In this document: positions 32,009 to 35,369 of the stretch, piece after piece
Layout of the letters: each line of letters starts with the position of its first letter
Position numbering within the stretch: the first letter of the stretch is position 1
Origin: Desulfobulbaceae bacterium UBA2273
Lineage (GTDB): Bacteria; Desulfobacterota; Desulfobulbia; Desulfobulbales; Desulfurivibrionaceae
Direction: 5' to 3'
DNA length: 36,214 bases
Assembly: GCA_002347095.1 (NCBI GenBank)
Contig: DDWZ01000003.1
Coordinates: 1-36,214, forward strand
Program-made: the position numbers and the translations under genes
Notes under the pieces: generated by a model
The model's database searches: none
What the model was told of the DNA's origin: nothing
The model's input: the letters and a program-made list of their open reading frames with translations, nothing else

Positions 32009-32395
32009 ATGAACAGCGCACAGGATATTTTCACCCAGGAAACCCTGCACACCCTCTTTCCGCCCGAACGGGCCAACGCCTTTTTCGACGCCCTGTTCGG
32101 CGACGCCGAAGAAGGAGCCTACGACATCCGCCTCGTTTTCAAAGGCCAGGCGGCAAACACCCTGACCTTCGGCCTGGAACTCCACGAGCGCCCCGGCAGA
32201 TGCCTGGCCTGCAATCTGACCTACGGCCTGCCCGAGGTATTCAGCCGCCACCCAGTCATCAACATCAAGGGACTGACGGCGGAGATCGACTCACTTCTAG
32301 GCGACAAGGCCACCTGCACCGCCTGGAAACTCGGCACCACCCAGACCGTTTCCAAGAAGCTGCATGTTATTCCGCTGATGATCAGCTTGGCGTGA
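32009..32395 (+). CDS. Conserved hypothetical protein; target of the KilA-N cassette
   Basis: A 128-residue protein starting MNSAQDIFTQETLHTLFPP, with FFDALFGDAEEGAYDIRLVF and a CLAC pair in the centre (RPGRCLACNLTYGLPEVFSRHPVINI). The pattern recurs in a family known to me from sulfate-reducing bacteria under uninformative names; function unknown. The last 15 residues are VSKKLHVIPLMISLA, and their codons are repeated, synonymously changed, 940 bp downstream (33288-33340) beyond the KilA-N gene. So the present 3' end probably came with the insertion. Confidence 0.75.
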   Translation: MNSAQDIFTQETLHTLFPPERANAFFDALFGDAEEGAYDIRLVFKGQAANTLTFGLELHERPGRCLACNLTYGLPEVFSRHPVINIKGLTAEIDSLLGDKATCTAWKLGTTQTVSKKLHVIPLMISLA

Positions 32396-32398
32396 AGG
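32346..32398 (+). repeat. Left copy of a 53-bp direct repeat (gene 3' end)
   Basis: The repeat holds the end of the small gene, from CCGTTTCCAA through its stop. It matches 33288-33340 in 48 of 53 positions. Four of the five differences are synonymous and the fifth is past the stop. Confidence 0.9.
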
Positions 32399-32437
32399 GA
32401 CTACTCCTCCTTAAACTAGTTCGACGCCTGGGAAAAT

Positions 32438-33262
32438 ATGAGTAAAGCGAAGAAATTGACCATCGACGTTCTGGGAACGACCATCACCGTCCTTTCCCAG
32501 AGGGACGAAGACTACATTTCCCTAACCGATATGCTGAAGGCGAAAGACGGCGATTTTTTCATTTCGGACTGGTTGCGGAATCGCAACACTGTAGAATTTC
32601 TCGGAATATGGGAGCGCGTCCATAACCCCGGCTTCAATTATGGCGAATTCGCCACAATTAGAAGCCAAGCCGGTCTAAACAGCTACAAGATCAGCGTCAA
32701 GGAGTGGGTCGCCAAAACCAATGCCGTCGGCCTACGGGCCTCAGCGGGAAGATACGGCGGCACCTATGCACACAGGGACATCGCCTTTGAATTCGGCATG
32801 TGGATCAGCCCCGAATTCAAGGTCTACCTGATCAAGGAATTCCAGCGCCTCAAGGAGGACGAAAACCGCCGCCTGTCACTGGCCTGGAACCTAAACCGCA
32901 CCCTTTCCAAGCTCAACTACCGCATCCACACCGACGCCATCAGAGCACACCTGATTCCGGCTGCGATTACGCCCTCGCAGGCCGCAATCACCTACGCCAC
33001 CGAGGCGGACCTGCTCAATGTCGCCCTCTTCGGCCAAACAGCCAAACAATGGCGCGACGCCAACTCCACCCTGGAAGGCAACATGCGCGAGTACGCCACC
33101 GTCGAACAATTACTGGTGCTGGCCAACATCGAGGGCATGAACGCCGAACTCATTCACATGGGACTGTCACAAGGGGAGCGACTCAAACGCCTCAATGAAA
33201 TTGCCATTCGCCAGATGCAGGTACTCACCTCCGCGTCGACGATCAAACAACTCAAGGGATAG
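32438..33262 (+). CDS. KilA-N domain protein
   Basis: The 274-residue protein begins with a KilA-N domain (about 8-125): YISLTDMLKAKDGDFFISDWLRNRNTVEFLGIWE, then YGGTYAHRDIAFEFGMWISPEFKVYLIKEFQRLK. A helical C-terminus follows, including TEADLLNVALFGQTAKQWR. KilA-N domains bind DNA and are typical of phage and large-virus proteins, often as antirepressor-like or moron genes. The C-terminal half resembles that of other bacterial KilA-N proteins found as lone genes. No good ribosome site precedes the ATG. It is flanked by the 53-bp direct repeats, which mark it as acquired. Confidence 0.85.
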   Translation: MSKAKKLTIDVLGTTITVLSQRDEDYISLTDMLKAKDGDFFISDWLRNRNTVEFLGIWERVHNPGFNYGEFATIRSQAGLNSYKISVKEWVAKTNAVGLRASAGRYGGTYAHRDIAFEFGMWISPEFKVYLIKEFQRLKEDENRRLSLAWNLNRTLSKLNYRIHTDAIRAHLIPAAITPSQAAITYATEADLLNVALFGQTAKQWRDANSTLEGNMREYATVEQLLVLANIEGMNAELIHMGLSQGERLKRLNEIAIRQMQVLTSASTIKQLKG

Positions 33263-33287
33263 CCCAATGCTCGACATCCCGACTAGG

Positions 33288-33340
33288 CCGTTTCCAAAAA
33301 ACTGCATGTTATTCCGCTGATGATCAGCCTAGCGTGACGG
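33288..33340 (+). repeat. Right copy of the 53-bp direct repeat
   Basis: Untranslated copy of the 3' end of the gene at 32009. An in-frame TAG stands directly before it. It still spells VSKKLHVIPLMISLA and stop, with AAG/AAA twice and TTG/CTA as synonymous differences. Confidence 0.9.
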
Positions 33341-33437
33341 AGAATCTGTTGGAGGCCATCATAATTTTCGGAATGATGACCTGAACTGTAGAATAACTTT
33401 TCATACGTCTAGGTAAAGACGCTGGGCATGGTCCACA

Positions 33438-34301
33438 ATGAACACTCTTTATCACTACTGCTCGACTGCCTCGTTCCATGCGATCGTCCAATCGCATTCT
33501 CTCTGGCTTTCGTCACTGTCTCTATCGAATGACACGATGGAGGGAAAGCTTGTCGCCCAAGCCTTTACCCGCCTCGCCGAAAGGGACTCACTTGACCCAT
33601 ACTCCGTTAGCCGCCTTCGAGACGCTGTCGGCATCTTAGAGGAAATCATTGATGGCCTGGGCTTCTGCCTATCTGAAGACGGCGACCTGCTAAGTCAATG
33701 GCGGGGGTATGCGGCCGATGCGACTGGAGTATCCATCGGCTTTTCTGCCGAGTACCTGAACTGGCTCTCTGAAACACACAAGATCCACAATGAGTTGCGA
33801 TTTTCTCTTCAAAAGATTGAATACGAATCTTCCGCCCACGAATCACACATAGAACCGACGTATCGCAAAATCAGGCAGTTCATCGATGCTGGGGCTTTTA
33901 AAACACCTGGCAGGCGAATGCTCCTCGATACTCGTACCGACGACAAAATTAAACAAGACAATGCGGCTATTAAAAAGGCGCAATCCCAGTTATCTCTGAC
34001 TGTGCTACCCCTTTTTTCCGAGTTGTTTCACCTAAAGGCCTATGCATTTCGAGAAGAACGAGAATGGCGCCTTCTCTCGCATCTGGTGAAGGGTGGGGAA
34101 GATCACTGTTCTCATCGCGTCGTGCATGACCGCATCGTTCCCTACCGCAAGATCGAACTTGCAGGGCTAGAGCGTAGCCCCATCACCGAAGTAATCCTTG
34201 GCCCCAAACACGGCACGCCACCAAGGGTAGTAGAAGACTTCTTGAAGCAAAACCAATATGCCGTTGTCCGGGTTAGGGGCTCAGAAGCAAGCTATCGGTG
34301 A
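33438..34301 (+). CDS. DUF2971 protein
   Basis: The 287-residue protein begins LYHYCSTASFHAIVQSHSLWLSSLSLSNDTMEG and continues with CLSEDGDLLSQWRGYAADATGVSIGFSAEYL and FREEREWRLL, the signature of DUF2971. Members are common in variable and defence-linked genome regions; no enzyme activity is proved. Codon use is more AT-rich and mixed than in its neighbours, which fits recent transfer. There is no clear ribosome site before the ATG at 33438. It lies directly beyond the right 53-bp repeat. The 33263-33437 gap holds that repeat and a small dyad (CGTC/GACG near 33408). Confidence 0.85.
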   Translation: MNTLYHYCSTASFHAIVQSHSLWLSSLSLSNDTMEGKLVAQAFTRLAERDSLDPYSVSRLRDAVGILEEIIDGLGFCLSEDGDLLSQWRGYAADATGVSIGFSAEYLNWLSETHKIHNELRFSLQKIEYESSAHESHIEPTYRKIRQFIDAGAFKTPGRRMLLDTRTDDKIKQDNAAIKKAQSQLSLTVLPLFSELFHLKAYAFREEREWRLLSHLVKGGEDHCSHRVVHDRIVPYRKIELAGLERSPITEVILGPKHGTPPRVVEDFLKQNQYAVVRVRGSEASYR

Positions 34302-35185: not shown

Positions 35186-35196
35186 TAGGTCTCCTC

Positions 35197-35292
35197 GTAG
35201 GTCGGCTTAGCGTAGCGTAACCCGACGTCTCAGGCCTTGGTACCGCGCATGGCAATGTTGGGTTACGCGATGAAACCGCTAACCCAACCTAC
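35197..35292. repeat. 96-bp MITE-like element
   Basis: GTAGGTCGGCTTAGCG (35197-35212) and the complement of CGCTAACCCAACCTAC (35277-35292) match in 14 of 16 positions, with GTAACCC/GGGTTAC inside. GTAGGTTGGGTTAGCG-type ends are familiar from small non-autonomous repeats in many bacteria. No target duplication seen. Confidence 0.55.
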
Positions 35293-35337
35293 TACTCCCT
35301 CCACATGGGCGATGATTCCAGCTTCACAGCCACCAGA

Positions 35338-35369
35338 TTTTAACCACCTCGAATTCGAGGGGATTAAAA
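35338..35369. terminator. Bidirectional terminator-like palindrome
   Basis: CCTCGAATTCGAGG (35347-35360) is a perfect palindrome, extended by TTTTAA (35338-35343) and TTAAAA (35364-35369). It lies between the membrane protein (plus) and the PHP gene (minus) and can stop both. Confidence 0.5.

Follow-up and report, generated by a model that had tools for sequence, protein, structure and literature searches.

How can a single gene, with no integrase of its own, come to lie between two copies of the end of another gene? This question is raised by a 36,214-nucleotide (nt) stretch of DNA from Desulfobulbaceae bacterium UBA2273 (positions 1 to 36,214 of contig DDWZ01000003.1, assembly GCA_002347095.1; hereafter the window), in which a KilA-N gene follows a conserved gene, named H here, and is followed in turn by a second copy of the H 3′ end. 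Defence-candidate genes often occur singly, and their travel without an integrase or transposase is rarely understood. Here, the junctions are readable: the operon of origin, a substituted gene end, a displaced native end and matched empty sites can all be recognized. The locus documents well how a single gene was inserted behind another, the allele at the end of the latter being substituted.

A repeat search of the window revealed a direct repeat at 32343–32398 and 33285–33340 (spacing 942, 50 of 56 nt identical), within which the 53-nt frame singled out by a first-pass annotation of this DNA (32346–32398 and 33288–33340) contains 48 identical positions. The first copy (T) is the 3′ end in use of H (32009–32395, 128 aa; the genes, repeat copies, relics and flank of the window placed below between this gene and position 34301 also lie on the plus strand), which reads VSKKLHVIPLMISLA-stop, and the second copy (T′) can be read likewise. 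In their coding part, 4 nt in 3 codons differ, all silently (3 silent to 0 replacement codons; so few replacements were obtained in 0.6% of random draws), and one further nucleotide difference lies beyond the stop codon. Repeat search and codon count thus bear out the first-pass description of two gene ends with synonymous coding differences. The sole gene between the copies is KilA-N (32438–33262, 274 aa, from the open reading frame (ORF) list and profile matches), and, as had been claimed, no integrase lies there. Searching the 3.2-Mb genome assembly with a 38-nt pattern (up to 3 mismatches) gave the two places in the window and no other copies.

H is conserved across the order, being present in 54 of its 58 genomes, and no family of Pfam, NCBIfam, PADLOC or PHROGs matches it at E 0.01. 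The occupancy of its 3′ end was compared in the window and 17 other same-genus contigs (15 genomes, two with two H contigs), leaving out G009, in which H is cut by the contig end. With a threshold of at least 33/50 matches, a second H end was found in 2 of these 18 loci, namely the window (46/50) and genome G002 (34/50 overall, 27/27 in the core), while three contigs extend less than 1.3 kb past H, so that a distant second copy is possible there. KilA-N together with a second H end is therefore present in two (the window and G002) of the 16 genomes of the genus in which the 3′ end of H is complete. Among the 17 genomes of the genus, KilA-N (E 1e-10 or better) occurs in three, G000, G002 and G014, and in the last of these it is flanked by an hsdR-like and an hsdM-like gene instead of following H. 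G002 and the window have their KilA-N unit at H in common (77% identity over 881 nt).

G002 carries 1805 extra bp behind H, ending in the second H end. The sequence to the right of that end is 92.8% identical over 968 bp to the sequence directly behind H in G004, and the regions upstream of H in the two genomes are 91.7% identical over 1198 bp; since the flanks match on both sides, G004 is the matched empty site of G002. Likewise, T′ (33285–33340) is followed in the window by a segment, terminator-like by eye (33343–33396), whose counterpart in G006 follows H immediately at an empty site (locus L035; 79.6% over 54 nt), and this would make T′ the displaced end of the resident H. The occupied and empty 3′ ends could also be compared directly: H of G002 is G004-like up to a 27-bp block found in both copies and differs only past this block, where the sequence becomes foreign, and the two H-end copies finish differently, each with its own flank. 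A switch to foreign sequence inside the shared block fits a single crossover in the repeat, but the block is, by eye, also a very well conserved stretch of H, which ordinary homologous recombination would favour too. The proposal that a conserved gene received an insertion at its 3′ end is supported, together with the empty sites that it predicted in relatives.

A trace of such a unit was also identified in G023, a member of another genus (locus L095), where H is followed by a KilA-N fragment (residues 1–94), an hsdM-like tail (recognized by eye) and one more gene. The gene behind KilA-N, which we take to be cyclase-like, is 88% identical over 775 nt between G002 (locus L045) and G023, and this exceeds the 71% identity of H, which suggests that the gene moved between genera. 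A repeat-like sequence of about 103 bp in the window (35195–35296; GTAGGTCGGC..) shares 86% identity with the right-hand end of the unit in G002, where its counterpart lies immediately ahead of the second H end.

Cargo is evidently taken up behind H, whose 3′ end is a slot: in 9 of the 17 other same-genus loci (L032–L035 and L037–L041), H is separated from a common downstream unit (DUF6962 in the window) by one of seven distinct genes, as would be expected if cargo is exchanged at a conserved anchor. Other genes at the same end, which the first-pass annotation had suggested looking for, are thus present. In the window, the order is H, KilA-N, the second H end, the hairpin and a DUF2971 gene (33438–34301, profile match), and other genes occupy the latter position in other species. 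DUF2971 may be regarded as the older accessory gene of the slot, and the whole order reads as new cargo placed ahead of older cargo.

The sequences immediately around KilA-N point to where it came from. In loci L119, L139 and L084, the gene order is hsdR-like, KilA-N, hsdM-like, and the neighbours in L119 were identified with Pfam (HSDR_N/ResIII and N6_Mtase/Methylase_S). The 42 bp between the H stop codon and KilA-N in the window (32396–32437) align with the hsdR ends of L119, L139, L198, L217 and L084, and in each comparison none of 300 shuffles reached the score; this segment is a relic of an hsdR 3′ tail (..KDYVSLNQFAA*), decayed through small changes. The approximately 22 bp past KilA-N (33263–33284; ATGCTCGACA..) are probably a relic of an hsdM start, with a weaker resemblance (0 to 7 of 300 shuffles reached the score over five comparisons). 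Tails of hsdR ahead of KilA-N were also found in G002, L110 and L113, with a weak one in L117, and their length across loci ranges from about 40 to about 126 bp, as judged by eye. Because an hsdR tail relic precedes the gene and a weaker hsdM start relic follows it, KilA-N came from a type I restriction operon, which the unit left with short and variable flanks. The idea of a cassette with defined ends is not supported, since a unit carrying relics of a restriction operon has no fixed ends. KilA-N genes usually share the orientation of their neighbours: among the ORFs within 300 bp, 46 of 55 on the upstream side and 48 of 56 on the downstream side have the same strand. L124 and L083 appear to retain remnants of older KilA-N genes, which stand ahead of the intact one and stop close to the palindrome described below.

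The frequency of this arrangement was determined by searching for direct repeats between 400 bp before and 1500 bp after a gene (a score of at least 25 was counted as positive). KilA-N relatives are numerous (at least 571 confirmed, 80 among the matches listed), and a flanking direct repeat was found in 14 of the 123 KilA-N loci analysed, or in 15 with ORF-based gene ends. Among other ORFs in the same loci, 9 of 580 were positive (Fisher's test, p 3e-6 against 14/123), five of them in L118, L140 and L203, which are themselves KilA-N positives. Further controls were RhuM genes (2/63; 0/25 in a smaller set), DUF2971 genes (0/29) and H loci (0/26); in the RhuM runs, whichever ORF spanning the centre of a locus was longest served as the tested gene, not individually checked, and some of the added RhuM loci hold partial RhuM matches only. 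The KilA-N frequency (15/123) differs from that of RhuM and DUF2971 combined (2/92, p 0.009) and does not differ significantly from that of RhuM alone (2/63, p 0.058, or p 0.17 at the lower threshold of 17). A control ORF near the KilA-N gene of L132 (2503–3708) is flanked by a 97-nt repeat with 79 identical positions.

By our judgement, seven of the cases are clear gene-end duplications, and by this stricter count KilA-N (7/123) and RhuM (1/63) do not differ (p 0.27). The duplicated targets are H in the window and in G002, an hsdR-like gene in L090, an aminotransferase gene in L114, hsdS in L152 and DUF58 in L188 (the last four assigned with Pfam); that of L122, where the contig ends, is presumably the start of a succinate dehydrogenase/fumarate reductase flavoprotein gene. 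The claim that KilA-N inserts at gene ends therefore extends to the duplicated ends of other genes, but not its restriction to 3′ ends, as 5′ ends are duplicated in L114, L152, L188 and probably L122. The duplication is 80/80 identical in L188, where KilA-N is broken near residue 236, and 27/27 identical in G002. In L090, the 3′ end of the hsdR-like gene is duplicated, and the homologous end is single in 8 loci of 7 other genomes of the order (within the stretches fetched, some of which end within a few hundred bp); the next gene is an hsdS-like start, as in L090, in four of these eight and a different gene in the others. Three further loci have other single genes at the same hsdR-like gene end, which we take from their sequences to be DinD-like (L282 and L285) and of the AlbA_2 type (L284). 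Duplicated gene ends are not exclusive to KilA-N, because L308, a locus fetched with RhuM, shows a duplicated hsdM-like 3′ end (82/99 nt). The repeat positives L118, L199, L203, L140, L082 and L134 were judged not to be gene ends, L141 is uncertain in this respect, L185 was not used as a clear case, and the repeat of L113 (22 bp, 21 identical) is below the threshold. The gene-end pattern is thus recurrent and commoner for the KilA-N family than for ordinary genes, and an excess over other accessory genes of restriction operons is not proven.

The divergence between the two copies is of the same kind elsewhere as in the window. The ratio of silent to replacement codons is 7:2 in L090, 3:1 in L114 and 3:0 in L152, which together with the window gives 16 silent and 3 replacement changes, each pair being matched by at most 0.9% of random draws. 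The copies of L308 differ by 6 silent and 8 replacement codons (8% of draws), those of L122 by 0 silent and 1 replacement (uninformative), and in L188 and G002 there is no difference within the repeat. As the copies differ mainly by silent changes in four of the five testable pairs, the comparison favours two alleles brought together over a duplication followed by decay. The silent differences in the window are likewise best read as those of alleles, in line with the earlier proposal that both copies had evolved as real gene ends before they met.

The inserted protein matches PF04383 (E 1.6e-23, 83 bits, cut-off 23.8) and, nearly over its full length (residues 5–273), the PADLOC model PDC-S22 (E 2.6e-129, 428 bits), which makes it a candidate anti-phage protein. 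PDC-S22 is a single-gene phage-defence candidate, as is the KilA-N gene of the window, and the library entry is silent on mobility and on gene-end duplication. No nuclease family was detected in the protein with Pfam, NCBIfam, PADLOC or PHROGs, and searches with the single sequence or a profile gave no convincing relatives of solved structure. In Foldseek, DdrC heads the lists for both the whole protein and its C-terminal part, with weak scores and a root-mean-square deviation above 11 over the whole alignment, and it also heads the VIA list for the C-terminal part; sequence similarity between DdrC and the KilA-N protein was not found. Apart from Mbp1-type folds and DdrC, the structural matches were regarded as background, and that no nuclease fold appears in the lists is no evidence. 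DdrC is a damage-response protein, described as Deinococcus-specific, that is reported to circularise and anneal DNA (PMC5436757).

Within the KilA-N gene lies a DNA palindrome (32633–32662) centred on GAATTC (codons E70 and F71). A GAATTC-centred, in-frame palindrome is present in the KilA-N domain codons in 105 of 125 loci, with 13/18 arm positions paired in the window and up to 16/18 in relatives, and pairing exceeds that in synonymous-codon shuffles (12.9 versus 8.7 of 15). The palindrome covaries and is kept well beyond codon choice. An mRNA hairpin was considered and rejected: the sequence folds well, yet RNA pairing gains no extra support from the mismatches, because A-C mismatches are about as frequent as G-U ones (45 versus 49 in 108 genes with at least 9 pairs). 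Also rejected was a role of upstream palindromes as the KilA-N protein's own operator, as upstream GAATTC and internal palindromes differ in type where both were listed. A 32-bp palindrome based on the commonest 30-mer had no match in E. coli, which had been considered as a dense set of occupied and empty sites. A lone palindrome of the KilA-N type lies between genes in the window (35339–35368, about 2 kb past the unit), and similar lone or relic palindromes occur in L101, L103, L109 and L095.

How, then, did the gene arrive behind H? We give an even chance to anchored recombination, by which KilA-N would spread between related bacteria as cargo of H, the donor allele entering H and the resident end being displaced. 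A PDC-S22 gene, once between hsdR and hsdM, would have been joined to the H end in some lineage, with about 40 bp of the hsdR tail and perhaps about 20 bp of the hsdM start remaining attached. The incoming piece (H 3′ end, hsdR tail and KilA-N) would then cross over within the last ~50 bp of the resident H, while its other end would be joined without long homology inside the same ~50 bp, giving a complete H with a donor 3′ end, KilA-N, the displaced resident end, the terminator-like hairpin and the older cargo DUF2971. H should stay functional, because both ends encode the same 15 residues. The anatomy, the occupied and empty sites, the relic of hsdR and the coding-like way in which the copies diverge are directly observed; we infer the order of events and the route of recombination, be it through homology on one side only or through a circle integrated by one crossover within the repeat. 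The left crossover lies in the H end in G002, and at the right junction unrelated sequence meets the resident end of H. A known route, homology-facilitated illegitimate recombination, can account for the anatomy, and an active role of KilA-N in the insertion is possible, with the covarying palindrome inside the gene as a lead. The same type of recombination was proposed for cargo displacement in the type VI secretion effector/immunity arrays of Vibrio cholerae (PMC5361080), where, as here, a conserved anchor supplies one-sided homology, new cargo arrives behind it and older cargo is pushed downstream; those arrays hold effector-immunity pairs, whereas the present case involves a single gene and a displaced end of ~50 bp.

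Several observations weigh against this reading. Its weakest point is why KilA-N is found in this way more often than most other genes: a generic route alone leaves unexplained both the excess over ordinary ORFs (14/123 versus 9/580, p 3e-6) and the presence of KilA-N alone at the ends of other kinds of genes (L188 and L114). No donor with the exact allele of the window was found, and the window by itself does not show which copy is 'donor' and which is 'resident', because T resembles the genus consensus and T′ is the deviant copy. The unit at H in G023 has neither a second H end nor a flanking repeat, and L110 and L117, despite their hsdR tails, lack a flanking repeat beyond chance-like scores, as do L111, L116 and L112. 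No flanking repeat was found in 108 of the 123 KilA-N loci. This figure tells against the first-pass view of the KilA-N unit as a type of mobile cassette, whose self-mobility stays putative.

In anatomy, and in how far the ends diverge in DNA as compared with protein, the nearest counterparts are the mobile ORFs (mORFs) of fungal mitochondria (Allomyces atp6; Glomus atp6, atp9, cox2 and nad3). As described for them (PMC3630166), such an ORF is inserted at the 3′ end of a protein gene with a foreign C-terminal coding end, the native end is found further downstream, the copies have diverged strongly in DNA but only slightly in protein, and relatives have the empty site. The window unit shares the duplicated gene end, the copies diverged in DNA and not in protein, and the matched empty site; unlike the mORFs described there, it resides in a bacterial chromosome, its KilA-N protein has no recognised endonuclease, and 5′ ends are also targets. 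By analogy, KilA-N might itself be mobile, the protein promoting insertion at gene ends and bringing a substitute end, possibly by annealing or circularisation through a DdrC-like C-terminal domain (both activities are ascribed to DdrC; PMC5436757), with the in-gene palindrome as the protein's DNA site. This we consider unlikely. It would account for the over-representation of KilA-N among repeat-flanked genes (14/123 versus 9/580 ORFs, and 15/123 versus 2/92), the diversity of targets (H, hsdR-like, hsdS, DUF58 and aminotransferase genes), a unit that extends up to ~140 bp past the gene on either side in five of seven clear cases, the palindrome kept against synonymous-codon shuffles, and DdrC at the top of the structure lists, although that likeness is weak and without detected sequence similarity. 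It was rated lower because the excess over RhuM alone is not significant. For this reason, and in view of the similar L308 and a known recombination route that can explain the anatomy, a process specific to KilA-N, as first envisaged, was not upheld. It is doubtful that KilA-N genes of the PDC-S22 type spread by themselves through bacterial chromosomes, as a bacterial counterpart of the mORFs in which a bare gene leaves restriction operons and lands at the ends of unrelated genes; equally doubtful is the extension that the substitute end lets the host gene survive while the palindrome in the codons of the DNA-binding domain serves as the gene's own recognition site.

Displacement of the 3′ end is typical of integrase islands at gene ends, where the displaced end forms a direct repeat. 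The unit could thus be the remnant of a larger island whose integrase acted at the H 3′ end, with the 53-bp repeats as attL and attR and everything except KilA-N deleted, and G023 did once hold more of a restriction operon behind H (the KilA-N fragment, hsdM-like tail and further gene). We regard this as quite unlikely: no integrase was noticed in the downstream ORFs of 15 H loci (first residues inspected by eye, no hidden Markov model), only one gene is present, the length of the shared block varies between species (27 bp in G002 against 53–56 bp in the window), KilA-N sits at different targets in other loci, and the deletions must have stopped within ~40 and ~20 bp of KilA-N. Integration in the style of tRNA-associated elements was rejected, the nearest tRNA being 7 kb off and the unit having no integrase. 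Very unlikely, finally, is a plain long target-site or tandem duplication at insertion, with the second copy decaying since; the identical repeats of L188 (80/80) and L045 (27/27) look as a fresh duplication would, but the mainly silent differences in the window, L090, L114 and L152 are unlike the free decay of a non-coding copy, and the copies of G002 end differently, each with its own flank. Within the open-licence PubMed Central literature on KilA-N, titles and beginnings of abstracts among the matches listed gave no account of such an insertion.

What the insertion means depends on the part played by the gene itself. If KilA-N drives the insertion, it would represent a new class of minimal mobile element. 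If it is not the driver, the locus is a clear natural record of one-sided recombination adding single genes to conserved anchors while leaving the anchors unbroken. The covarying palindrome inside the gene poses a separate and directly testable question.
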